From the NCBI GenBank assembly GCA_020850355.1, contig JADZEX010000037.1, forward strand, positions 186,001 to 250,000: 64,000 nt of DNA, read 5' to 3'. How positions within the stretch are numbered: the first letter of the stretch is position 1; each line of letters begins with the position of its first letter. The notes below the pieces were generated by a model. That model was not told the DNA's origin, did no database searches, and saw only the letters and a list, made by a program, of their open reading frames with translations. This DNA comes from Fimbriimonadaceae bacterium (GTDB lineage: Bacteria; Armatimonadota; UBA10988). Below, piece after piece: positions 3,045 to 15,007 of this stretch. The position numbers and the translations under genes were made by a program.

Positions 3045-4562
3045 ATGACCTGCTGTGTCGCCTTCGCGCTGTTGGCCGGCCAGGTGGCGGCGGCCGCAGA
3101 ACCCATCGTCGACTACCAGCTCACGGTCGACCGCGGCGAGGATCGCGGTCAGAACTTCGGCTCGTTGTTCGAGGTCACCTCAACCGACGGCAAGCTGACG
3201 ATTGGGGCGGGCTTCGCCGGTGTCTACAACACCTACCTGCGGCCCGACCGGCATGTGCTGCAGTGCTATGTCCGGGACGACAGCGCGCCGGCCCTGCAGC
3301 GGCAGGCGCTGCCGCGGGCCGGCGGCCTGGCGGGAGCCTATCTCTTCGACCTCGACGGCGCGCTGCACGCCACGGTGGAAGATGTCCGGCGATACGACGG
3401 CGCACAGTGGGTCAAGCAGCCGACGACTCACGGCGGCCGCATCCGGATCGGCGCGCAGCTCGTGCTGTTCGACAACAACAGCATCGTCCACGACCAGCAG
3501 ACCATCCTGGGCGCCCCGCCGCAAGGTTCGTACGTGCGGTTCTACTACGCCCAGGGCTGCTGGTTCTACTACCATGTCCACCGCGGGCCGGGCGGCTACC
3601 GTGCCTACCAGTCCGACGACGACGGCTTCAGCAAGCTCTGCGTCAGTCCCTGGCGGCCGGGCGACGGGCCGCTCGATCCCGCCCAGGCCAAAGCCTTCAC
3701 CTTGCCGGTGGTCGGTGAAGTCCCCTTCGCCTGGGGCCAACTGGGCGGCGAGGTGCTGACCTGCTCCAACATCGGTGGGCTCTATGCCTACGACGGCCGC
3801 CAGTGGCGCACACTGCGGCAGCCTGACCTCAAGGTCAGCTACCAGGTCTACTCGATGCTGAACTACCACGACCGCCTGCTGTTGGGCCAGTACCCCAGCG
3901 GCCGGCTGTTCGAGTACGACGGCCGCACGGTCCGCGAGCTGGCCGCCGCGCCGCCGGTGATGCCCGGGGTCAGCGGCGCCTCGCGCGAGGCGCAGACCAC
4001 GACCATCTACGGTGGCCGGCTCTACGTCGGCGTCTGGCCCTGGGGCGAGCTCTGGCGTCAGGACCAGCCGGGCGCCCCGTGGGAGCTGGCCGCCAGGCTC
4101 TTCGACGAGCCGGCCCCGACCGACGCCACCACCCACCCCTACGAGAATGAGTGTCGCGCCGCGGGCCTGGTGCTCAACCAGTACGGGCAACGGGTCACCA
4201 GCCTGCTGCCCCACGGCGCCGACCTGGTGGCCTCCACCTCGGCCAAGGACCCCTGCCGCTACGACCCGAAGCTGCTCGTGCTGGGCGACGACAAGTGGCA
4301 GGCCTACGGCCAGATCTACCGTCTGACCGCCCCCGGCAACCTCAGTGCGCCGCTGACCTGGACCGCCGGTCCGACGGCCCTGCGGCTGAGCATCGACACC
4401 ACCGGGCTGCGCATGGAACAGGATGGCCGCCTGCTCGGCCACAGCCCGCTGCCCGCCGCGTTGCTGACCCGCCTGCGCCAGGCAACCTGGCAGCCGGTGC
4501 GCTGGCAGCAGGGCGTCTTCGGCACCTTCGGTGGGCTGCAAGTCGCCGCGCGCCAACCGTAG
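3045..4562 (+). CDS. Secreted protein with repeated propeller-like blades, function unknown
   Basis: 505 residues. I chose the ATG at 3045 because GGGAGGGG precedes it at good spacing and because it creates a signal peptide (MTCCVAFALLAGQVAAAA); the frame is open upstream to 2961. The body has recurring strands of the type GGLYAYDGRQW, GRLFEYDGRTV and GGRLYVGVWPWGELW, which suggests a kelch-like or similar beta-propeller. No catalytic motif is evident. It stands alone between the divergent LamG gene and the secretin cassette. It may bind carbohydrate or act as a surface protein, but that is inference. Confidence 0.8.
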   Translation: MTCCVAFALLAGQVAAAAEPIVDYQLTVDRGEDRGQNFGSLFEVTSTDGKLTIGAGFAGVYNTYLRPDRHVLQCYVRDDSAPALQRQALPRAGGLAGAYLFDLDGALHATVEDVRRYDGAQWVKQPTTHGGRIRIGAQLVLFDNNSIVHDQQTILGAPPQGSYVRFYYAQGCWFYYHVHRGPGGYRAYQSDDDGFSKLCVSPWRPGDGPLDPAQAKAFTLPVVGEVPFAWGQLGGEVLTCSNIGGLYAYDGRQWRTLRQPDLKVSYQVYSMLNYHDRLLLGQYPSGRLFEYDGRTVRELAAAPPVMPGVSGASREAQTTTIYGGRLYVGVWPWGELWRQDQPGAPWELAARLFDEPAPTDATTHPYENECRAAGLVLNQYGQRVTSLLPHGADLVASTSAKDPCRYDPKLLVLGDDKWQAYGQIYRLTAPGNLSAPLTWTAGPTALRLSIDTTGLRMEQDGRLLGHSPLPAALLTRLRQATWQPVRWQQGVFGTFGGLQVAARQP

Positions 4563-4586
4563 TTCGAGGCATCTTCCGGTCGCGCC

Positions 4587-4615
4587 TTGACGCGCCGCCA
4601 CCACCTGGCTATAGC
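4587..4615 (+). promoter_or_regulatory. Predicted sigma70-type promoter of the secretin cassette
   Basis: TTGACG (4587-4592), 17 bases, TATAGC (4610-4615). It lies between the previous stop codon and the GTG at 4701, leaving a leader of about 80 bases. The -35 box agrees with others in the window. Confidence 0.5.
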
Positions 4616-4669
4616 TCATTGTAGCTAGTTGAGGTGGTCGTTCGCCGACCGCTTCCAGCGCTGGGTGGG

Positions 4670-4688
4670 ACCGCCTGCCGCAGGCGGT
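4670..4688 (+). promoter_or_regulatory. Leader hairpin just upstream of the ribosome binding site
   Basis: A perfect 8-bp inverted repeat, ACCGCCTG / CAGGCGGT with a 3-base loop, ends two bases before the GAGG-type ribosome binding sequences of the gene at 4701. It could affect translation or mRNA stability of the cassette. No T-tract follows, so it is not a classic terminator. Confidence 0.4.
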
Positions 4689-4700
4689 GAGGTTGAGGTC

Positions 4701-5336
4701 GTGAAGTCGTTCGTCCGGGTGTTGTGTTGGCTGCTGCTGGGTCTGGCCTGTGCCCCAGGGCGGTTGCTGGCGGGTGTGGACTGGCAGCCGGGCATCGGCT
4801 GGCAGACCGCGCCGGCCAGCGGCCTGGCCGAACGGCCGGCCGCTGGCGGCGCCAGCGGGCGGTACTACAACTTCCCGTCGCGCTTCGAAGCGCGCTGGTG
4901 GATCGTCGACCGGCAGACCTACTTCCACTTCGGCAGCCTCCCGGCCGGGCTGCCGCTCGCCGGCTGCGAGACGCTGCTGCGGGTGCTGGCTGGCAACCCC
5001 GTTGAGCTGGTCCTGGCGTTTGTGGATGGCGAGCTGCTGTCACCGGGCTGTGAAGAGACCGGCCTGGTCAGCGGGGCGCTGCGGGGCACCTGCGATGGCG
5101 GCGGCACCGCGCTGGCGGCCCGCTTCAACGCACGGCTGCTGGTGAGCCAGGACAACGGACCATTCTACCCGCCCGACAGCGTCGACTTCAGCCCACCGGC
5201 CTTTCGGTATGCGCTGGTGGCACGCCAGCAACAGGACATCCGGATCCGCGTCGAGTTGCTCCCCGACGCGGCGCAACCGGCCGGCAACTACATCTTCCGG
5301 CCTCGCCTGCAGGTTCTCCCGGTCGGGCATCCCTAG
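4701..5336 (+). CDS. Exported protein of the secretin cassette, paralogue of the next gene
   Basis: 211 residues from a GTG at 4701. GAGG lies at good spacing and the N-terminus MKSFVRVLCWLLLGLACAPG is a signal peptide; the longer ORF from 4629 would bury it. The mature protein is beta-rich with four cysteines in the middle (GCETLLR, SPGCEE, GTCDGG and neighbours). It resembles the next gene product in order and spacing: QTYFHFGSLP versus KIYFHLGNIY, and a C-terminal ELLPDAAQPAGNYIF versus ELLPNAGQQDGNYIL. The closing GNYI-type strand is reminiscent of fimbrial or spore-coat-U-like subunits, but I cannot assign a family. Likely a substrate or structural subunit handled by the secretin downstream. 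Confidence 0.75.
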   Translation: MKSFVRVLCWLLLGLACAPGRLLAGVDWQPGIGWQTAPASGLAERPAAGGASGRYYNFPSRFEARWWIVDRQTYFHFGSLPAGLPLAGCETLLRVLAGNPVELVLAFVDGELLSPGCEETGLVSGALRGTCDGGGTALAARFNARLLVSQDNGPFYPPDSVDFSPPAFRYALVARQQQDIRIRVELLPDAAQPAGNYIFRPRLQVLPVGHP

Positions 5337-5396
5337 CGGGTCGCCGGCGGCAGAGCTGCGCGCGGGGTCGAGTTGGGCGCGGTCTGGGGACTGCGT

Positions 5397-5416
5397 GGGA
5401 CACCGGGGGGTGTCCC
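5397..5416 (+). terminator. Hairpin between the two exported-protein genes
   Basis: GGGACACC / GGTGTCCC, a perfect 8-bp stem with a GGGG loop, in the 163-base gap between the first two cassette genes. No T-run follows. It may be an attenuator or an mRNA processing site that sets different levels of the two proteins. Confidence 0.4.
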
Positions 5417-5499
5417 GAACGGACCCGCCGGCAACGGCGGTGCAGGACGGTCTGCTGCGGCGGGCCGTGGTCCGGAAGGACCTGGTGAGGGAGAGACAC

Positions 5500-6315
5500 A
5501 TGCGTAAGTTTGCGATGGCGCTGACGGTCCTGGCCCTGGTGTGGCCGGCCGCCGCGCAAGGCCCGACCGACGGGGCCAACACCCTGTGGGGACAGGAAGG
5601 CACCGCCGCCGATGGTGGCACCACCATCAACGGCAAGGACCCGGGGATGACCCTGAAGTCGTCCAGCGGCCCGACCACCAACGTCAAGAACAACTGGATC
5701 CTGCAGGGCGGCAGCGAAGTCTACTCGGCGGTCTACAGTTGGGACAGCTCGGCCTGGGTGGCCGAAGACGTCGTCGGTGACGGCTCGCTGGACATCGAAG
5801 CCGACATCGAAATGTACCTCGCCACGACGGTCGCCAACAACAAGATCTACTTCCACCTCGGGAACATCTACGAGGCGATGACCGACGCCACGACCCGCGC
5901 GCGGGACCTCACGGCGATCGTCAACGCCACGGTGACCTCGAACCACGGGATGTACATCGGCTTCCAGTTCAATGGCACCAAGGTCGCCAGCGACTTCGAC
6001 TTCACGACCGGCCGTATCAAGGACGCGATGGTCTTCACCAAGGACATCGCCGGGCGCACCACGCCGTCCAACCCGGCCGACGGCCCGAGCATGTTTGACA
6101 TCGCCATCACTCGCAAGATGGACGGCGGCGCGTTTGTGCCGGGCAGCTCGTTCGGCGAAGGTGCCCACGGCACCATCACCTCGACGCTCTGGTGGGACCG
6201 CTCGCCGGGTGGCCACCACATCTTCGAGTACAAGGTTGAGCTGCTGCCGAACGCCGGCCAGCAGGATGGCAACTACATCCTCGACCCCGTGATGGTCTAC
6301 GCGCCGGCGCTCTAG
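5500..6315 (+). CDS. Exported major-subunit-like protein of the secretin cassette
   Basis: 271 residues from the ATG at 5500, preceded by GAGGGAGAG. Signal peptide MRKFAMALTVLALVWPAAAQ. The mature part is rich in Gly, Thr, Asn and Asp and contains no cysteine, as in many surface-layer or fibre subunits. It shares with the preceding protein a YFHLG motif in the middle and a VELLP(N/D)A-x-Q-x-x-GNYI C-terminal segment, so the two are paralogues of unequal length. Codon choice is strongly biased to C/G-ending codons, fitting high expression, and the hairpin upstream may isolate its transcript. Candidate exported substrate or polymer subunit; function inferred from context only. Confidence 0.8.
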   Translation: MRKFAMALTVLALVWPAAAQGPTDGANTLWGQEGTAADGGTTINGKDPGMTLKSSSGPTTNVKNNWILQGGSEVYSAVYSWDSSAWVAEDVVGDGSLDIEADIEMYLATTVANNKIYFHLGNIYEAMTDATTRARDLTAIVNATVTSNHGMYIGFQFNGTKVASDFDFTTGRIKDAMVFTKDIAGRTTPSNPADGPSMFDIAITRKMDGGAFVPGSSFGEGAHGTITSTLWWDRSPGGHHIFEYKVELLPNAGQQDGNYILDPVMVYAPAL

Positions 6316-6429
6316 CCGGCAACCGGATCCGGCGCACCAGGCCGGTCGCATCGACACTCCGCCCTGGGCAGGTCGCGGCACCCACCGCGGCCTGCTCGGT
6401 GGTGTGAGTCAGCCGGCGGGAGGGGCCCT

Positions 6430-8034
6430 GTGACGGGATTGCGTGGGTGGCTGCTGGCAAGCCTCTGGCTGGGTCTGGCCGTCCACCCCGGCCGGGCGCA
6501 GTTGATCATCGCGCCCAGCGTGGTCGATGCGGTGCTGCCGGTCTCCAACAACCGCGGCCTGACCGTGGGTGTCAACAACGCCGGCAGCACGGAGCTGAAC
6601 TGCTCCATCAGCATCACCCACCTCGATATCCAGGCCAACGGCCTGCCGGTGGTCAGCCAGAGCGACACCCGGAGCTGCCGCGATTGGCTGACGGTATCTC
6701 CCACCGAGTTCGCCCTGACGCCGCGTCAGGACCGCCGGATCGGCCTGACGGTGAAGATCCCGAAGGACGCTGGCGGCGGCTACTACGCGATGCTGGCGAT
6801 CAGTGCCAAGCCGATCGCCGAGCGGGATCCGACCACCACCGGCAGTGGCGCCACCCTGCGGATGGGCTACCTGAACTACGTGCCGATCCTGCTGACCATC
6901 CCGAGCCCAACGATGAAGGCGGCGCTCGAACCACAGCCGCCGCAACTGATCGACGTCGGCCCCGACGGCTTTGGGGTCGCGGTCGCGGTCCGCAACAGCG
7001 GCACGCTGCACGCCCGCCTCGAGGGCGCTCTCGAGGTGCGCGCCGAGAACGGCCTGGTCCTCGACACGCTCAGCCTGGGCAGCGGCTACCTGCTGCCCGA
7101 GCATCGCCGGGAGTACGCCGCGCGGGGCGGGCTGCGGCTCCCCGACGGTACCTACCGCCTGACCTGCAGCTTCGCGATCCAGGGTCAGCCGGGCAGCCGG
7201 CGCAGCGAGCATCCGTTGATCATCCGGGACGGCCGGCCCGAGCTGCGGGAGCTGTCGGCCGCCGACCGCGCCGCGCTGGCGCAGACCGCGCTCGGCTTCC
7301 GCGTCAGCACCAACACGCTCGGTCTGCGACTCGGCGCCGGCAGCACCCGCACGCTCTACGCCGAGTTGGTCAACCTCACCGACACCCCGCTGCCGATCCG
7401 CGCGACCGTCGTCGAGTGGGTCCGGGGACCGGATGGCCAGGACCGCTGTGGCACCTTCGAGCCGACCCACGGGCGGTCGCTAGGCCCGGCCCTGACGCTG
7501 CGGCAGCCGACCCTGACGCTGGCCAAGAAGGGCCGGCAACGAGTGCCCCTGAGTGTCACCCTGCCGGCCGGCAGCCGCGGCGAGTACTATGCCGCGGTGC
7601 GCTTCGACCGCGCCGACCGCGCCGCCTCCGAAGACCCGGCTCAGATCGCCCGGCGCGCCGCGCTGGTCCAGGTCTACGCCGAGCAGACCGCGCAGCCGGC
7701 CGTGCGGGTTGACCGACTGGAGGTCGCTCCCAACCCGCGCAGTGGCGTCGACCTGGCCCTCAGCCTGACCAACACCGGCAACGTCGGCCTGGTGCCGGGG
7801 GTGCAGTTCGAGGTCTACGACGAGCGCGACCAGCTCGTCGACCGCTTCGCACTGCCCGCCGGCAAGCTGGTCCAAGCCGGCCTCGGGGCGGTGCTCCATG
7901 CCCGCTGCGAGACGGCCCTGGCGCGCACCAGGCACCGCTTCGTGGCCCTGGTCGGCGTCGACGGCCGCAGCCGGCCGACCGCCACGCCGGTCGAACTCGA
8001 TCTCGGCGCGACCCCCGCGGTGGGAGGCCCCTGA
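6430..8034 (+). CDS. Periplasmic two-module Ig/chaperone-like protein of the secretin cassette
   Basis: 534 residues from a GTG at 6430 with GGGAGGGG upstream; signal peptide MTGLRGWLLASLWLGLAVHP. Two related halves are visible. Each opens with a strand such as VSNNRGLTVGVNNAGS or RLGAGSTRTLYAELVN, and each later has a pattern like P-x-x-F-A-L-x-P-R-Q-D-R-R-I-G-L-T-V-K-I-P followed by GGGYYAMLAI or GEYYAAVRF. That layout resembles fimbrial-chaperone or DUF916-type Ig domains. It ends 2 bases before the secretin start, so the two are translationally coupled. A role as chaperone or assembly factor for the two exported proteins upstream is inferred, not shown. Confidence 0.8.
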   Translation: MTGLRGWLLASLWLGLAVHPGRAQLIIAPSVVDAVLPVSNNRGLTVGVNNAGSTELNCSISITHLDIQANGLPVVSQSDTRSCRDWLTVSPTEFALTPRQDRRIGLTVKIPKDAGGGYYAMLAISAKPIAERDPTTTGSGATLRMGYLNYVPILLTIPSPTMKAALEPQPPQLIDVGPDGFGVAVAVRNSGTLHARLEGALEVRAENGLVLDTLSLGSGYLLPEHRREYAARGGLRLPDGTYRLTCSFAIQGQPGSRRSEHPLIIRDGRPELRELSAADRAALAQTALGFRVSTNTLGLRLGAGSTRTLYAELVNLTDTPLPIRATVVEWVRGPDGQDRCGTFEPTHGRSLGPALTLRQPTLTLAKKGRQRVPLSVTLPAGSRGEYYAAVRFDRADRAASEDPAQIARRAALVQVYAEQTAQPAVRVDRLEVAPNPRSGVDLALSLTNTGNVGLVPGVQFEVYDERDQLVDRFALPAGKLVQAGLGAVLHARCETALARTRHRFVALVGVDGRSRPTATPVELDLGATPAVGGP

Positions 8035-8036
8035 CG

Positions 8037-9311
8037 ATGCGACTCGCCGGCCGCTGGCTGCCTTTCCTGCTGTGCGCCGGCGCGCTCTGCGCCGCCGAGC
8101 CGACCACGCCGGCCGCGCCGGCCGCACCGGCGCTGGTCACCAACAGCTTCAGCGAGACCGATCTGCGGCAGGCGCTGGCCGACATCGCGGCCCAGGCCGG
8201 CGTCAGCATCATCGCCGACAACAGCGTGCAGGGGCTGGTCAGCGCCGAGTTCACCGCAGCGCCGTTGGAGCAGGTGCTGGAGCATCTGCTGCTGGTCGGC
8301 GGCTTCGTCTACAAGCGCCTGCGGCCGGGGTTCTATCTGGTCACCAGCCCCGACCCCAAATCGCCGAACTACGACCTGGTGGTCGAGCAACGCCTGGTGC
8401 CCCTGGAGTTCGCCCGCGCCGCCGACCTCAAGAAGCTGATTCCGACGCAGTACCTGCCGCACATCCAGCTTGACGAAGCCCTCAACCGGGTTCTGGTGAG
8501 CGCCCCGCAACCGCGGCTGCAAGCCATTTTGGACCTGCTGCGCGAGGCCGACACGCCGCCGGTGCAGGTGATGATCGAAGCGCTGATGGTCGAGACCACG
8601 GCCGGTGATTTGGCCAAGTTCCAGGCCAGCTTCCAGCGCTCTCACTTTGGCGGCGACAACACGACCGGGGTGATCACCTACCTGGAGAACGCTACCAACC
8701 TGCTGAGTCAGGTGCTCTGGCTGGTCGCCAGGTCGAAGGGCAGCGTCAAGGCCAGCCCGCGCGTGATCGCCCAGCAGGGCCGTGAGGCGCAGGTCGCCGT
8801 GTCGATCCAGCAGTACTTCCAGATCCTCACCGGCCAGGCCGGCTTCGGGTACTATCAGTTGCAGGCCATCGAGGCCAAGGTTGGCCTGACCATCACCCCG
8901 CTGGTGGCCCTCAGCACCCGCGAGGTGACCTGCGACATCGCGCCCGAGGTCGGCGACGTCACCGGCACCGGGCCGAACAACCTGCCGATCATCACCCGCC
9001 GCACCGCCAACACCAGCGTCCGCGTCAAGGACGGCCAGATCATCGCGATCGGCGGCCTGCTGCAGCATCTCGAACAACAGGTCCGGCGCAAGATCCCCCT
9101 GCTCGGGGACCTGCCGCTGATCGGGGAGCTGTTCCGCAGCCAGTCCACCGAACGCAGCGACCGGGAGGTCACCATCTTCCTGGTCCCCCACATCCTCGAC
9201 CCCGACGGCTCCTTCAGCGGCCCCCTGGTGCTCGACCGGGTCCCAGCCATCGGCGTGGTGCCGGAGCGCCCGGCCGGCCCGCCCACTGCGCCGCCGCTGC
9301 CGCGGCACTGA
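8037..9311 (+). CDS. Secretin (GspD/PilQ-type outer-membrane channel), short form
   Basis: 424 residues; ATG at 8037 with GGAGG in the end of the preceding gene. Signal peptide to about residue 22 (ends LCAAEP). An STN/N0-type domain follows (TDLRQALADIAAQAGVSII), then one N1-type domain (VPLEFARAADLKKLIPT) and a secretin domain from about residue 180 (VQVMIEALMVETT) through VASIxQYFQ-type and VKDGQIIAIGGLL (VxDGxTIxIGGL) to the signature region RRKIPLLGDLPLIGELFR. It is shorter than typical GspD or PilQ. No inner-membrane platform, ATPase or pseudopilin gene is nearby. It presumably forms the outer-membrane pore for the proteins encoded upstream. Confidence 0.92.
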   Translation: MRLAGRWLPFLLCAGALCAAEPTTPAAPAAPALVTNSFSETDLRQALADIAAQAGVSIIADNSVQGLVSAEFTAAPLEQVLEHLLLVGGFVYKRLRPGFYLVTSPDPKSPNYDLVVEQRLVPLEFARAADLKKLIPTQYLPHIQLDEALNRVLVSAPQPRLQAILDLLREADTPPVQVMIEALMVETTAGDLAKFQASFQRSHFGGDNTTGVITYLENATNLLSQVLWLVARSKGSVKASPRVIAQQGREAQVAVSIQQYFQILTGQAGFGYYQLQAIEAKVGLTITPLVALSTREVTCDIAPEVGDVTGTGPNNLPIITRRTANTSVRVKDGQIIAIGGLLQHLEQQVRRKIPLLGDLPLIGELFRSQSTERSDREVTIFLVPHILDPDGSFSGPLVLDRVPAIGVVPERPAGPPTAPPLPRH

Positions 9312-9341
9312 GCCGCCAGCGTTCCGACGCAGTTGCGGCTC
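9310..9341. terminator. Hairpin between convergent genes
   Basis: GAGCCGC (9310-9316) pairs with GCGGCTC (9335-9341), with an inner GCGT/ACGC stem. It overlaps the secretin stop codon and lies between two convergent genes, so it may end transcripts from both sides. There is no clear T-tract. Confidence 0.4.
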
Positions 9342-9345
9342 GCCC

Positions 9346-12153
9346 TCACCGCGCGACCCGCACCGGCTCGCCCGCCAGCGCCGCCAGCTCCAGCCACCGC
9401 CCGACCAGCCGTTGGCCGCCGTGGCGGCCGCGCACGAGCCGTTCCGTGGCCGGCCAGCCGCAGAGGGTCGCCAGGTCCAGACGCACGGCGGCATCGGCCG
9501 TGCTGACCAGCCGCAAGGTCTCGGCGTCCCAGCGCAGCAACACGTTGGCGGGGTGCGTCGCGCTGAACTCCAGACCATCGCCGGTGTACTGCTGGTGGCC
9601 GACGAACCGCGCGCCGGGAGCCCGGTACTCGTAGCCTGTGCCAATCGCATTGGGCGCTGGACGGACGGTCAACTGCCCGGCCGCACCGCCGTCCTCGACG
9701 TAGTCGCGCAGGAAGCGCAGCGCTGGGACCAGGGGTTTGGGCTGCGCGGTGCTGGTGCCGTCCGACCAGAACAGCCCAAAGCGGCCCTGCTCGATGTGCT
9801 TGGCCCGGTCACTGGCCGGCACGTACCTGAGCTGCTCGATGGACAGCGCCAGCGGATGGTCGGTCAGCGCCCACTTCAGGCAGCCGCTGTAGCCGTGGGC
9901 CCAAGCGTAGAGGTAGTGCAGGAACTCGCCCAGGGCGCTGGTGTGCAGGTCCAGGTAGCCGCCGGGCAGGGCCAGCCCGTTGGTGTAGCCGAACTCGCCG
10001 AGGGTGATCGGCCGGTCGGGCCAGACGGCCTGTAAGCGGTCGAGCGTGGTCAGGTTCCGCAGCACCTCGGCGTGGCTGGTCGGCGACTGGTAGGCGTGGT
10101 ACGAGACAAAGTCGAGCTGGGCGGCCGCCGGCAGACAGGCGAAGATGGTGTTGAAGCCGACCGAGATCGGGTGCGTCGGGTCGACCGCGCGAATCGCGGC
10201 GATCTGCCAGGCGATCCAGTCCTGGAAGATCCCCGAGGTGGCGTCCAGCAGCGGTCCATGCTCCGCATCGCGCGGCAACGGGCCGCGGACGCCGGGGAAG
10301 CTGGTGAAGTTGCCCTCCATCTGCAGGCCGGCCCAGGTGGTGTATTCGTCCCATCGCCGCCACAGCGGGTAGCGCTGCCCGAGGCTCTGCTCGCCGTCCT
10401 TGAGGTCGGCGAGGCGAAAGGCGTAGGGTTCGTTCTGCAGGTCGTAGCCGAGCACCATCGGCTCGTCTCGGAAGGCCGCCGCGACCTGCCGACAGCGCTC
10501 TTCGAGCGTCGCTCGCGTGGCGTGGTCGGCGTGGTCGTTGACCACGATCAGCAGGTAGATGCCATACCGTCGGGCACACTCCCGGAGCTGCGCCAGCTTC
10601 GCGGGGTCGCGCCAGAAGGCGCTGGCGCCGTAGATCCGCAGGCAGTTCAGCCCCGCCTCGTGCGCGCGGCGGAAGTCCTCGTCCAGCCACTGCGCCCAGG
10701 GACCGCCGAAGAACTTGCGGTCCAGGCTGCCGATGTGGTTCGCGCCGATCAGGAACAGCGGCCGGCCGTCGCTCCGGACGAACCGCCCGCCGTCACGGCG
10801 CACTCCCGGGGGCGGCGCGGTCGTCAACGCGATCCGCCGGGCCACGCGTTGCTCATTGGTCGCCTTGCACACCGTTGGCAGATCGCGCTCGGCGACCGCC
10901 CGCAGATAGCCCGCGAAGCAGGCGTCGAAGGTGCGAGACCGGTAGAACTCGGGCGTGGTCACGCCGCTCAGCAACCAGCAACCGCCAGCGTAGGCGCCAC
11001 CATAGTGGACCAGCAGCGAGGCCGCCCAGCCCACCGTCCGGTCACGCGGATCGACCGCCCGCAGCAGTGGCAGCAGTTGGCTGCGGTCCCACAACGTGAA
11101 ACCGACGGCCGACCAGCCGGCGAGTGCCCCGTCCCAGTCCCTCGCAGTGACATAGTCCTGGTCGGCACATGTCGCGACCCCCACGGCGGCACTCAGGTCG
11201 TACGGCTCGTAGTCATCAAAGCAGACGGCGTTTGGCACGCGGCAGTCGCTGGCGGTGAACGCTAGCCGGTGGCGCGTGGTGGCCAGCTCGGCCAGCTCAA
11301 TCCGGTGGTGGCCACGGAGCTGGCCCGACCCGTCGGTCGCCAGACCCCAGTTGACCCGCGTGACGCGCTCCAGGTGCAGGCGGTCACCGTCGCCCCCGCG
11401 GGCGGCCGGCGGGCCATCCTTGAAGAAGGTGAACTGCCGCGTCTGGATGGCCACCCGGCGCCAGGCGGTCGTCAGCGGTATGTCGACCTTCCAGCGCGAG
11501 CCGTCCTGCTCCGCCAGCTCCAACAGCATCGTCGGCGTGGCCTCGCCACCGCGCACCTCCAGCAGCAGCAGATCCTGGTCCGCCGGCACGGCCCGCGGCC
11601 AGGCCGCGCCGACCATGTCCCACTGCCACGCGCCGAGGTCGGCGATCTCCAGCCGCAGGCAGTCCCCCCGCGGTCCTTGCCCGGCCACCAGCCGCGAAGG
11701 ATGCTCCGGCTGATTGGTGCCCCGCCGCCAGCTTCTCAGGTCGGCCGGACCGCCGCCCAACACGACGTGCTCCGCCGGCTGCGCCGCCACCGCCGCGGCG
11801 CAGCCAGCCTGGTCCAGCCAGCGCCCGGCGTGCTGCAGCACTGGCTGCTCGTAGGCCCGGCCGCCGAGCAACGCCAGGTGGCCGCCAGCCCGCAGAAACG
11901 CCTCGACATTGCCGCTCGCGGCACCCGGCCAAACTGGGCTGTGCGGCACCACCAACAGGTCGAACCGTTGCCGCGAAAAGCGCGCCGGGTCGGCCAGCGC
12001 GACGGCGTCGAGTGTCTCCAGGGTTTGGCCCGCGGCGGCGGCGACCGTCTGGAGATGCGCCACCATCGCCGCCTCGTAGCCCGGCAGATCGTCCAGCAAC
12101 ACGGCGCCCCGCAGGGCGCCTGCCAGCAGCATCAACGGCCACAGACCCACCAT
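9346..12153 (-). CDS. Multidomain clan GH-A glycoside hydrolase, secreted
   Basis: 935 residues. I chose the ATG at 12153 because a perfect GGAGGTG sits 6 bases upstream and because it yields a signal peptide (MVGLWPLMLLAGALRGA). Residues about 20-130 resemble the glutamine-amidotransferase-like domain attached to some beta-galactosidases (LLVVPHSPVWP, FLRAGGHLALLGG). A carbohydrate-binding-like beta sandwich follows (about 165-300). The catalytic TIM barrel runs from about 455 to 800: acid/base candidate E575 in LQNEPY, YHAY near 685, and nucleophile candidate E720 in TLGEFGYTNG. Both catalytic acids are present, so it should be active on a beta-linked glycan (GH5/GH42-like); the substrate is unknown. 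Confidence 0.88.
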   Translation of the reverse strand: MVGLWPLMLLAGALRGAVLLDDLPGYEAAMVAHLQTVAAAAGQTLETLDAVALADPARFSRQRFDLLVVPHSPVWPGAASGNVEAFLRAGGHLALLGGRAYEQPVLQHAGRWLDQAGCAAAVAAQPAEHVVLGGGPADLRSWRRGTNQPEHPSRLVAGQGPRGDCLRLEIADLGAWQWDMVGAAWPRAVPADQDLLLLEVRGGEATPTMLLELAEQDGSRWKVDIPLTTAWRRVAIQTRQFTFFKDGPPAARGGDGDRLHLERVTRVNWGLATDGSGQLRGHHRIELAELATTRHRLAFTASDCRVPNAVCFDDYEPYDLSAAVGVATCADQDYVTARDWDGALAGWSAVGFTLWDRSQLLPLLRAVDPRDRTVGWAASLLVHYGGAYAGGCWLLSGVTTPEFYRSRTFDACFAGYLRAVAERDLPTVCKATNEQRVARRIALTTAPPPGVRRDGGRFVRSDGRPLFLIGANHIGSLDRKFFGGPWAQWLDEDFRRAHEAGLNCLRIYGASAFWRDPAKLAQLRECARRYGIYLLIVVNDHADHATRATLEERCRQVAAAFRDEPMVLGYDLQNEPYAFRLADLKDGEQSLGQRYPLWRRWDEYTTWAGLQMEGNFTSFPGVRGPLPRDAEHGPLLDATSGIFQDWIAWQIAAIRAVDPTHPISVGFNTIFACLPAAAQLDFVSYHAYQSPTSHAEVLRNLTTLDRLQAVWPDRPITLGEFGYTNGLALPGGYLDLHTSALGEFLHYLYAWAHGYSGCLKWALTDHPLALSIEQLRYVPASDRAKHIEQGRFGLFWSDGTSTAQPKPLVPALRFLRDYVEDGGAAGQLTVRPAPNAIGTGYEYRAPGARFVGHQQYTGDGLEFSATHPANVLLRWDAETLRLVSTADAAVRLDLATLCGWPATERLVRGRHGGQRLVGRWLELAALAGEPVRVAR

Positions 12154-12939: not shown

Positions 12940-14106
12940 ATGGCCAGCGAGAAGGCACAGAGCACAACCAAGAAGCCACGGACCGGAGGTGCAGCCAACG
13001 TCGCCGAGCCGACCAGCCAGCGCCGGCTACGCCTGGAACGGCTCGAGATCACCAACCTCAAGGGCATCGATCACCTGGAGATCGAGTTCCCCGAGCCGCG
13101 CTGGCCGGGCGAAGCGGACATCCACGTCCTCGGCAGCGCCAACGGCGTCGGCAAGACCACGGTCCTGGAAGCGGCAGCGCTGGCTTTCTTGTGCAGCGAC
13201 AAGGATGGCCGCTGGCTCAAGGGCTGGGATCCCGACGACCTGGCGCTCGACTTCGGTGACTACTTCTGCCGCGCCGGGGAGTCCTCTGGCCAGGCAACCG
13301 CTGTGTTCGGCCTGCCGGACGGCAGCGCGAGGAGCGGCTTCAGATGCACTCGGCACGGACGACTGGTGCCGGACGTCGGCGACGACTCCGCGGCTCCGCT
13401 GCAGGAATACGTCGCTCGTGACGCACGTGGCAGGTTCAACAGCCGTGACCCGCTGGCGGCTATCGAGCTGCTCCGGGCGCTGCTGGGCTACAGCGCAGAG
13501 CCGGTGTTGGTGCCGGGTCTGGTGTGCCTGCACAGTTACCGACGCATGACCGAAGGTGGCATTGAGCTGGGCGCGCTGGTGAGCGGCGGCGAGCGCCGGC
13601 CGGGTCGAGCCTGGCGAATGGGCACGCCGATGAGTGCCTTCAAAATGGAGGCCTTGCGCGCCAAAATGGCCAGTGCTGGGCTCTTTGAGCGTCTGGCGAC
13701 TGAGCAGCCGAGCGAAATACTGCCGCGCCTGGATGATCTGCTCGGGCGGTTTGCAGGCTGCAAGCTGGCGCAGCTTCGCCCGAGTGAATCGAATCAGGTC
13801 GAGTTGCGAGTCACCCCACTCGCGAGCACCGAGTCCTTCTCGTTCGACGCGCTCAGCTCCGGCCAGAAAGAGATCATCGGGACGCTGTTCCAGATCTGGC
13901 TGCACACCAAGGACACCCCCGCCATTGTGCTGATCGACGAGCCGGAACTGCATCTCAACGGCGAGTGGCACGCCGAGTTTGTACGTGCCCTGACCGATCT
14001 GGCGCCGCAGAATCAGTACATCCTGGCGACGCACTCACGGTCGGTGTTCGCGGCAGTGCCCGAGGAGCGGCGCCTGATGCTGCAACCCGCCGTGGGACGC
14101 CGCTGA
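12940..14106 (+). CDS. AAA/ABC-type ATPase of a PARIS-like two-gene system
   Basis: 388 residues; the ATG at 12940 is favoured over 12904 by a GAGGAAGG ribosome site. A basic, low-complexity stretch of about 28 residues precedes the ATPase fold. Walker A is GSANGVGKTT (65-74), the ABC-type signature is LSSGQKE (305-311), Walker B is IVLIDEPELHLN with D333-E334, and the H-loop is ATHS (H365). This is the AAA_15/OLD-type architecture used by many phage-defence ATPases. The next gene starts one base after its stop and encodes a DUF4435/TOPRIM-like protein, which is the AriA-AriB arrangement of the PARIS system. Proposed role: sensor or scaffold ATPase that restrains or activates the partner nuclease. 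Function inferred from gene pairing. Confidence 0.85.
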   Translation: MASEKAQSTTKKPRTGGAANVAEPTSQRRLRLERLEITNLKGIDHLEIEFPEPRWPGEADIHVLGSANGVGKTTVLEAAALAFLCSDKDGRWLKGWDPDDLALDFGDYFCRAGESSGQATAVFGLPDGSARSGFRCTRHGRLVPDVGDDSAAPLQEYVARDARGRFNSRDPLAAIELLRALLGYSAEPVLVPGLVCLHSYRRMTEGGIELGALVSGGERRPGRAWRMGTPMSAFKMEALRAKMASAGLFERLATEQPSEILPRLDDLLGRFAGCKLAQLRPSESNQVELRVTPLASTESFSFDALSSGQKEIIGTLFQIWLHTKDTPAIVLIDEPELHLNGEWHAEFVRALTDLAPQNQYILATHSRSVFAAVPEERRLMLQPAVGRR

Positions 14107-14107
14107 G

Positions 14108-15007
14108 ATGGCGGCGGTCACCCGAGGGGTTCAGGCCGATGCCGTTGAGCAACGAGCTTCTGTCGTCGTCTACGTGGAGGGCAACACAGACAGCTTCGAT
14201 CAAGCGGTGATCGGAGCGCTGCTGAGCCCGCTGGATGTGGAAGTCCGGACCCTCGGCTGCTGCGACAACAGCCGCGCGGCAGCCGCCGGGTGGCATGCCA
14301 GCCACCCCAACTACCTGTTCATCGCCGACCGCGACTACCGCTCAAACACAGCGGTGGAGGACTCCTGGAGCGGTTTCCCCGATCCAGAGAAGTGGAACCT
14401 GCTGTTCTGGCGTCGGCACGAGTTGGAGAGCTACTTCCTGGAGCCGGCATGGCTGGCCCGCGGCAGGTACCTCAAGCCCAGGACGAACGAGAAGTCCATC
14501 GCGAAGAAGCTCACCGACGAGGCCAAGCGCCGGCTCTACTTGGATGTTGTCAATGATGTCATCGCCGCCGTACTCGCCGAGTCCCAACAGACCTGGGTCT
14601 GGCCCTTGCCGAATCCGGCTGAGGTGCCAGACGAAGATAGCGCGTGGCGGGCGCTGTCAGGATTGGCGAGTTGGACGAGTTGGCCCGACAAGATGCGCCA
14701 GGCGTTGTCTGTGACCGCACTACGGGACCGCTTCGACCAAACGTTGGCTGACTACCTGGGCGGCGCCACGTCGCCGGTGCTCGGTTCCGGCCAGTGGCAG
14801 GCCCGTATGTCCGGCAAGCCGCTTTACCATCATCTCGTCGACACCTGCTTCGCGGTGCGGGACCTCCAGGAGCGGGTCGTCCAAGGCAAGGATGCTCGCG
14901 GCCGGGTGGCCATTGACCTGATCCAACAAAGCGACGAGCACTGGCCCGCGGACATCCGGAGACTGCGGGACCTGGTGAAGCAGCATCGCGAGCAGCTCAC
15001 CTGGTGA
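14108..15007 (+). CDS. DUF4435/TOPRIM-like effector of the PARIS-like pair
   Basis: 299 residues, starting one base after the ATPase stop codon (TGA G ATG), so translation is coupled. Seen motifs: VYVEGNTD with the conserved TOPRIM-type glutamate E24; FIADRDYR with D74 and D76; and WRRHELESYFLEP with H104-E105-L106-E107-S108-Y109, the HxxE-N/S-Y block typical of DUF4435. The rest is helical with no recognisable domain. AriB of PARIS has this fold and acts as a nuclease that blocks host growth on phage infection; by analogy this protein would be the toxic effector. Codon use is somewhat less GC-extreme than in flanking metabolic genes. An OLD-like nuclease of another system is the main alternative. 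Confidence 0.82.
   Translation: MAAVTRGVQADAVEQRASVVVYVEGNTDSFDQAVIGALLSPLDVEVRTLGCCDNSRAAAAGWHASHPNYLFIADRDYRSNTAVEDSWSGFPDPEKWNLLFWRRHELESYFLEPAWLARGRYLKPRTNEKSIAKKLTDEAKRRLYLDVVNDVIAAVLAESQQTWVWPLPNPAEVPDEDSAWRALSGLASWTSWPDKMRQALSVTALRDRFDQTLADYLGGATSPVLGSGQWQARMSGKPLYHHLVDTCFAVRDLQERVVQGKDARGRVAIDLIQQSDEHWPADIRRLRDLVKQHREQLTW

Follow-up and report, generated by a model that had tools for sequence, protein, structure and literature searches.

Secretins are normally thought to need an energized platform or phage assembly proteins for their work, and fibre subunits delivered by a chaperone are thought to need an usher. The chaperone-usher pathways (archaic, alternative and classical) consist of small exported subunits, a periplasmic chaperone made of Ig domains and an outer-membrane channel, all encoded in one operon without an ATPase. 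The cassette described here displays the same general plan, however it has no PF00577 usher and its outer-membrane part is a secretin. Its chaperone also differs, i.e. it is a tandem protein without a PapD-family Pfam match and is nearest to WxLIP. As the usher is the defining feature of that family and is missing, the cassette is not classed with the chaperone-usher systems.

The Gram-positive WxL/WxLIP clusters (DUF916-DUF3324) likewise encode a two-Ig unit together with small exported partners, and the first unit of the cassette chaperone (gene C) is homologous to EfmWxLIP1. The partner protein in these clusters has a WxL domain with a dual Trp-x-Leu motif, whereas A and B give no Pfam match. 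Unlike WxLIP, C is a tandem protein without a terminal membrane helix, it is encoded by diderm bacteria, and its gene goes together with that of a secretin. WxLIP is an Ig pair with a hairpin that is predicted to insert into the WxL beta-sandwich and to complete it (PMC10599100). By analogy, this completion is in principle the same as the strand complementation carried out by pilus chaperones. The secretins PilQ, HofQ and GspD, which belong to type IV pili (T4P), DNA uptake and type II secretion (T2SS), share with the cassette secretin (gene D) a complete core with N0/N1. D differs from these in that it falls in a separate clade, has no extra N domains and is not encoded with PilM-P, an ATPase or pseudopilins.

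No description of a chaperone-secretin pathway was found in the open-access literature, to which the search was confined. Of such genes, the Fimbriimonas genome paper discusses only those of T4P and T2SS type (PMC4072686), and for Halanaerobiales only PilQ-type secretins are mentioned (PMC5007114).

Gene calls in the window, i.e. the whole 64-kb stretch of DNA analyzed, show four consecutive genes, A, B, C and D, on the + strand at positions 4701–9311 (Table 1). The N-terminus of each of the four proteins is signal-peptide-like as read from the sequence. The first-pass annotation had described a four-gene exported set with an Ig/chaperone-like protein and a short secretin, the last two genes 2 bases apart, and both points agree with the gene calls; the stop of C is at 8034 and the start of D at 8037, which leaves a 2-nt gap. 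The promoter that it placed upstream holds in part. The hexamers are present, however a consensus scan of positions 4400–9450 accepts zero sites and the promoter is therefore unproven. The upstream flank is a + strand gene that ends at 4562 and is apparently unrelated. Downstream, a minus-strand gene at 9346–12153 displays a weak cellulase (GH5) match below the Pfam cut-off; as had been noted, no other parts are seen in the 4.6–12 kb region. Farther along the window, positions 12940–15007 hold an AAA/ABC-type ATPase-like gene and an adjoining gene for a 299-aa partner, which by eye resemble an anti-phage defence pair.

Table 1. Positions of the cassette features in the 64-kb window.
Feature	Position	Strand	Description
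Promoter-like hexamers	4587–4615 (TTGACG 4587–4592, TATAGC 4610–4615)	+	TTGACG-17 nt-TATAGC; weak, unproven
A	4701–5336	+	211-aa exported protein, GTG start; C-terminal motif in common with B (VELLPDAAQPAGNYIFRPRLQVLP)
B	5500–6315	+	271-aa exported protein, putative surface subunit
C	6430–8034	+	534 aa, tandem WxLIP-like putative periplasmic chaperone with four Ig domains
D	8037–9311	+	424-aa minimal secretin: N0/STN-like, N1 and complete secretin core

D belongs to the secretin superfamily, as its PF00263 core scores above the curated Pfam cut-off (121.5 bits, E-value 3.5e-35, cut-off 27.5). The N-domains are minimal; the Secretin_N (26.6 bits) and STN (17.3 bits) matches are both below cut-off. 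The best NCBIfam matches are the PilQ and GspD models, each under its own cut-off, and Pfam recognizes no further domain, including pilotin-binding or AMIN domains. A tree built from 65 secretins places those of the cassettes in a single clade (support 100/98), which is present in 200 of the 200 bootstrap trees examined; the clade tested comprises 31 rows, of which L063, L052 and L164 were assigned to it beforehand from their placement in a quick tree. It is apart from the Proteobacteria PilQ, from GspD, and from the PilM-associated and T2SS secretins of this genome. A larger quick tree gives the clade an SH-aLRT value of 99. L063, L052 and L164 are the sole rows inside it without a called chaperone, and the Tad and second PilM-type secretins of this genome fall outside.

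In the tree, the Armatimonadota three-secretin clusters are closest to the cassette clade, and the cassette secretin may thus be derived from a three-secretin T4P-like ancestor, as judged from sequence relationships. Three consecutive secretin-related genes are found in the Armatimonadota T4P-like loci L048, L050, L051, L053, L058, L061, L206 and L207. In the Planctomycetota/Verrucomicrobiota loci L064, L067, L072, L073 and L111 the secretin domain is in called open reading frames of about 2640–2690 aa, which are either fusions or a gene-calling artefact.

C gives nothing above cut-off with Pfam or NCBIfam. It shows no PapD-family pilus-chaperone match in Pfam, its nearest solved relative is WxLIP, and two-Ig units are predicted. 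The two halves of the protein align with each other at 99.9% probability (hhalign, E-value 1.8e-33) and C is therefore a two-Ig unit duplicated in tandem. The AlphaFold2 model, made from an alignment of 32 sequences, displays four Ig-like beta-sandwiches arranged as two two-domain units (about residues 25–272 and 286–524) with a mean pLDDT of 86.8. Alignment and model together confirm the tandem Ig protein proposed from the letters of the sequence.

The profile of the C family over the first unit (positions 37–280) matches EfmWxLIP1 of Enterococcus faecium in a search of solved structures with an E-value of 1.7e-15, and the homology spans both Ig domains. Matches of family members to the Pfam WxLIP models are below cut-off. 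A Foldseek search with the C model lists the WxLIP structures 9i25 and 9i1y; most of the list consists of long multi-Ig proteins of cilia and complement, and only the WxLIP entries are regarded as informative, since they are backed by the sequence profile as well. A C-terminal transmembrane helix is absent from C, and the model ends in a beta strand and a short tail. The F1-G1 hairpin, which would be the strand donor, is short (11–21 residues) and variable in the C family. By analogy with WxLIP and the pilus chaperones, a chaperone role of C is likely.

A and B were at first taken for paralogs. This holds for their C-termini, where about 31 residues are in common (hhalign 56% probability, E-value 1.1e-4; BLASTP aligns 25 aa with 52% identity), but not for the rest of the chains. 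A has no Pfam or NCBIfam match and does not match the profile of the B family. B has no Pfam match and no recognized pilin domain, and its AlphaFold2 model, based on five sequences, has a pLDDT of 41.6, which is too low for use. Pfam shows no enzyme domains in either protein. Members of the B family are present in the other cassettes L029, L030 and L157, and in L032 beside a single chaperone. Elsewhere one to five small exported proteins are found per cassette, and many of these have a beta-strand motif at the C-terminus. In 25 of 33 cases the chaperone is preceded by small exported proteins whose N-terminus contains a hydrophobic stretch. Profile searches of Pfam and PDB link none of the small exported proteins, A and B included, to a known family of pilins or to a solved structure.

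The phylum is Armatimonadota, since 1001 bases of the named Chthonomonadia contig L058 are 100% identical to G007, one of the same-phylum genomes. The C family profile matches 64 of 291 Armatimonadota genomes. Gene calls on the fetched neighborhoods give 31 loci, the window included, in which a C-family chaperone is encoded with a secretin on the same strand; L198 and L203 among these carry only a chaperone fragment. Besides the window they comprise L027, 26 loci in other Armatimonadota genomes, and three from outside the phylum, i.e. L049 of Halanaerobium saccharolyticum, L054 of a Thermotogae MAG and L055 of a Bacillota MAG. The tandem chaperones are about 500–610 aa in length and are followed downstream by a same-strand secretin, which is the next gene except at the second chaperone of L027, L038, L040 and L055. 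Chaperone and secretin overlap or are spaced by 0–3 nt in about ten loci. In the second cassette of this genome (L027, positions 4307–12015, contig 88) a single secretin is encoded with two tandem chaperones and five small exported proteins. L164, additional to the 31 loci, has a cassette secretin beside a chaperone profile match that gene calling missed. The first-pass annotation had proposed a search for the same gene order in other genomes, and C with a secretin recurs in 30 other loci. Its alternative, that homologs of the upstream genes are never linked to secretins, is contradicted by their linkage in many genomes.

Several long chaperones (about 490–610 aa) have no adjacent secretin. 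L159 runs into a stretch of N, and L161, L162 and L172 are partial at contig ends. The cassettes of L161 and L162 were probably split by the assembly, since in each case a cassette-type secretin is found at the start of a different contig of that genome (L199 and L197, respectively). From the side of the secretin, a phylum-wide search finds the chaperone fragment upstream in L198 and L203, whereas L200 and L202 begin at contig edges and the short secretin fragment L205 has no chaperone nearby. L063, a member of the cassette clade, has no chaperone within 7 kb, and L052, also of this clade, is close to a contig end. Genome G236 has both a tandem chaperone and a secretin (L201), which are 1.17 Mb apart, and the neighborhood of L201 is possibly phage-like.

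This genome has eight secretin matches. PilM-type clusters are on contig 72 and contig 62, a T2SS with GspG, GspK and a PilM/N-like GspL is on contig 22, and a separate Tad locus with a CpaF-type ATPase, TadB/C and a prepilin peptidase is on contig 6; each of these has its own secretin. Thus D is not part of a complete T2SS or T4P locus, as had been considered. Searches of the cassette loci with the PilM-type, T2SS and Tad proteins of this genome give a single match, a GspG-type pseudopilin in L166; this pseudopilin-like match aside, the same search finds no ATPase, PilM or platform gene at the cassettes. The GspE ATPase, GspF/L/M platform and pseudopilins of T2SS are accordingly missing from the cassette loci save for the L166 match, and the PilM/N/O and PilQ arrangement of T4P and the CpaF ATPase, TadB/C and CpaC secretin of the Tad pilus are missing too. 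PF00577 has no match in the whole genome and is above cut-off in only one of the 291 Armatimonadota genomes. The absence of usher, ATPase and inner-membrane platform from the cassette, first read from the window, is therefore confirmed, for the usher across the genome and for the platform genes at the locus. A role of D as the PilQ of a scattered T4P is rejected, as the PilM-type loci own their secretins and D lies outside the PilQ clade. A filamentous-phage origin (pIV-type secretin) was set aside, since no phage genes are found at the cassettes looked at.

Relatives of C with a single unit (about 240–315 aa) form a comparison group. About 21 are intact and none is encoded with a secretin. 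These Armatimonadota loci resemble the cassette in having a related one-unit chaperone and small exported proteins (e.g. L034:7953–12095, L180:5860–9760, L195:5376–9024), however the partner is a 628–959-aa protein with C-terminal CarboxypepD_reg/SdrD_B domains in the eight loci checked, and never a secretin. The large partners were checked as possible ushers; they have no PF00577 match and only the C-terminal domains are recognized. For this reason they are named only putative outer-membrane proteins, and they are possibly a non-usher assembly platform.

Taken together, the cassette probably encodes a pathway that is dedicated to the export and assembly of surface proteins, most likely of a fibre or a layer of subunits. 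The small exported proteins, here A and B, would be translocated across the inner membrane by Sec. C may keep hold of the subunits in the periplasm by supplying what is missing from their Ig fold, and may then pass them to D by docking on the secretin N-domains. D would be an outer-membrane ring that gives the subunits their exit route, and A and B would polymerize into a fibre outside of the cell. Since no ATPase or platform is encoded with the cassette, the process would be driven by the folding and polymerization of the subunits, as in chaperone-usher pili, and would be independent of an ATPase. Duplication of the chaperone coincides exactly with a secretin as the outer-membrane partner, and one may speculate that one unit serves the subunit and the other the secretin ring.

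The first-pass annotation suggested that a secretin may replace the usher. At the genomic level this is supported by the linkage, the separate secretin clade and the near absence of ushers; we infer from gene content that the secretin stands in the usher's place. The function is assigned with moderate confidence. The broader proposal is of a previously undescribed chaperone-secretin pathway, in which a duplicated WxLIP-type chaperone would deliver surface subunits straight to a dedicated minimal secretin, and their assembly outside of the cell would need no usher, no inner-membrane platform and no ATPase. This pathway would be present at least in Armatimonadota, in Thermotogota, and in Halanaerobiales or other diderm Bacillota; for this proposal the chances appear evenly balanced. 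Points that count against the export and assembly reading are the lack of a known pilin match in A and B, the variable F1-G1 hairpin, the unlinked genes of G236 and the lack of a chaperone at L063.

The T2SS, T4P or Tad machines elsewhere in the genome could serve the cassette secretin in trans. D would then be an alternative outer-membrane port for one of these platforms, and C an accessory that delivers substrates or stabilizes the port. The genome does have the PilM-type, T2SS and Tad loci, with an ATPase gene in the Tad locus, and well-studied secretins act with energized platforms or phage assembly proteins. However each of these loci owns a secretin, D is in a separate clade and has minimal N-domains, and platform genes are not found at cassette loci except for the match in L166; such use in trans is unlikely. 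A pilotin-like or peptidoglycan-anchor-like role for C, as a periplasmic scaffold that assembles or anchors the secretin with A and B as pore lids or surface caps, would fit the adjacent or overlapping C and D genes of many loci and the lack of recognized pilotin-binding or AMIN domains in D. WxLIP has moreover been proposed to bind peptidoglycan and WxL (PMC10599100). The single-unit relatives of C nevertheless occur with small exported proteins and without a secretin, so that the shared role seems tied to the small exported proteins, and in L027 a lone secretin is accompanied by two C genes and by five small exported proteins. The scaffold role is accordingly quite improbable.

There is very little likelihood that the cassette exports A and B as free soluble proteins and builds no fibre or surface layer. 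The lack of a recognized pilin domain in B and its poor model are compatible with soluble export, and polymerization of A and B is itself a predicted step. On the other hand there are several small exported proteins per cassette, many of which have at their end a beta-strand motif like that of Ig-fold fibre subunits, and A and B lack enzyme domains.

If the proposed chaperone-secretin pathway is correct, a conserved operon that joins a secretin with a chaperone would be a separate solution to the crossing of the outer membrane, and would explain chaperone-dependent surface display in usher-poor phyla such as Armatimonadota. The link to WxLIP suggests that one strand-complementing family may serve both Gram-positive surface complexes and export in diderm bacteria. 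The Halanaerobium saccharolyticum cassette is from a named strain, MSL 17.2, and the idea may therefore be open to genetic testing.

The Halanaerobium and Bacillota cassettes also encode an exported protein of about 400–440 aa after the secretin (L049:8131–9444, L055:1709–2932, L052:8111–9433). That of L049 has no Pfam match. A gene that by eye is like a SARP-type regulator is next in L055 and L052, and is upstream in L049.
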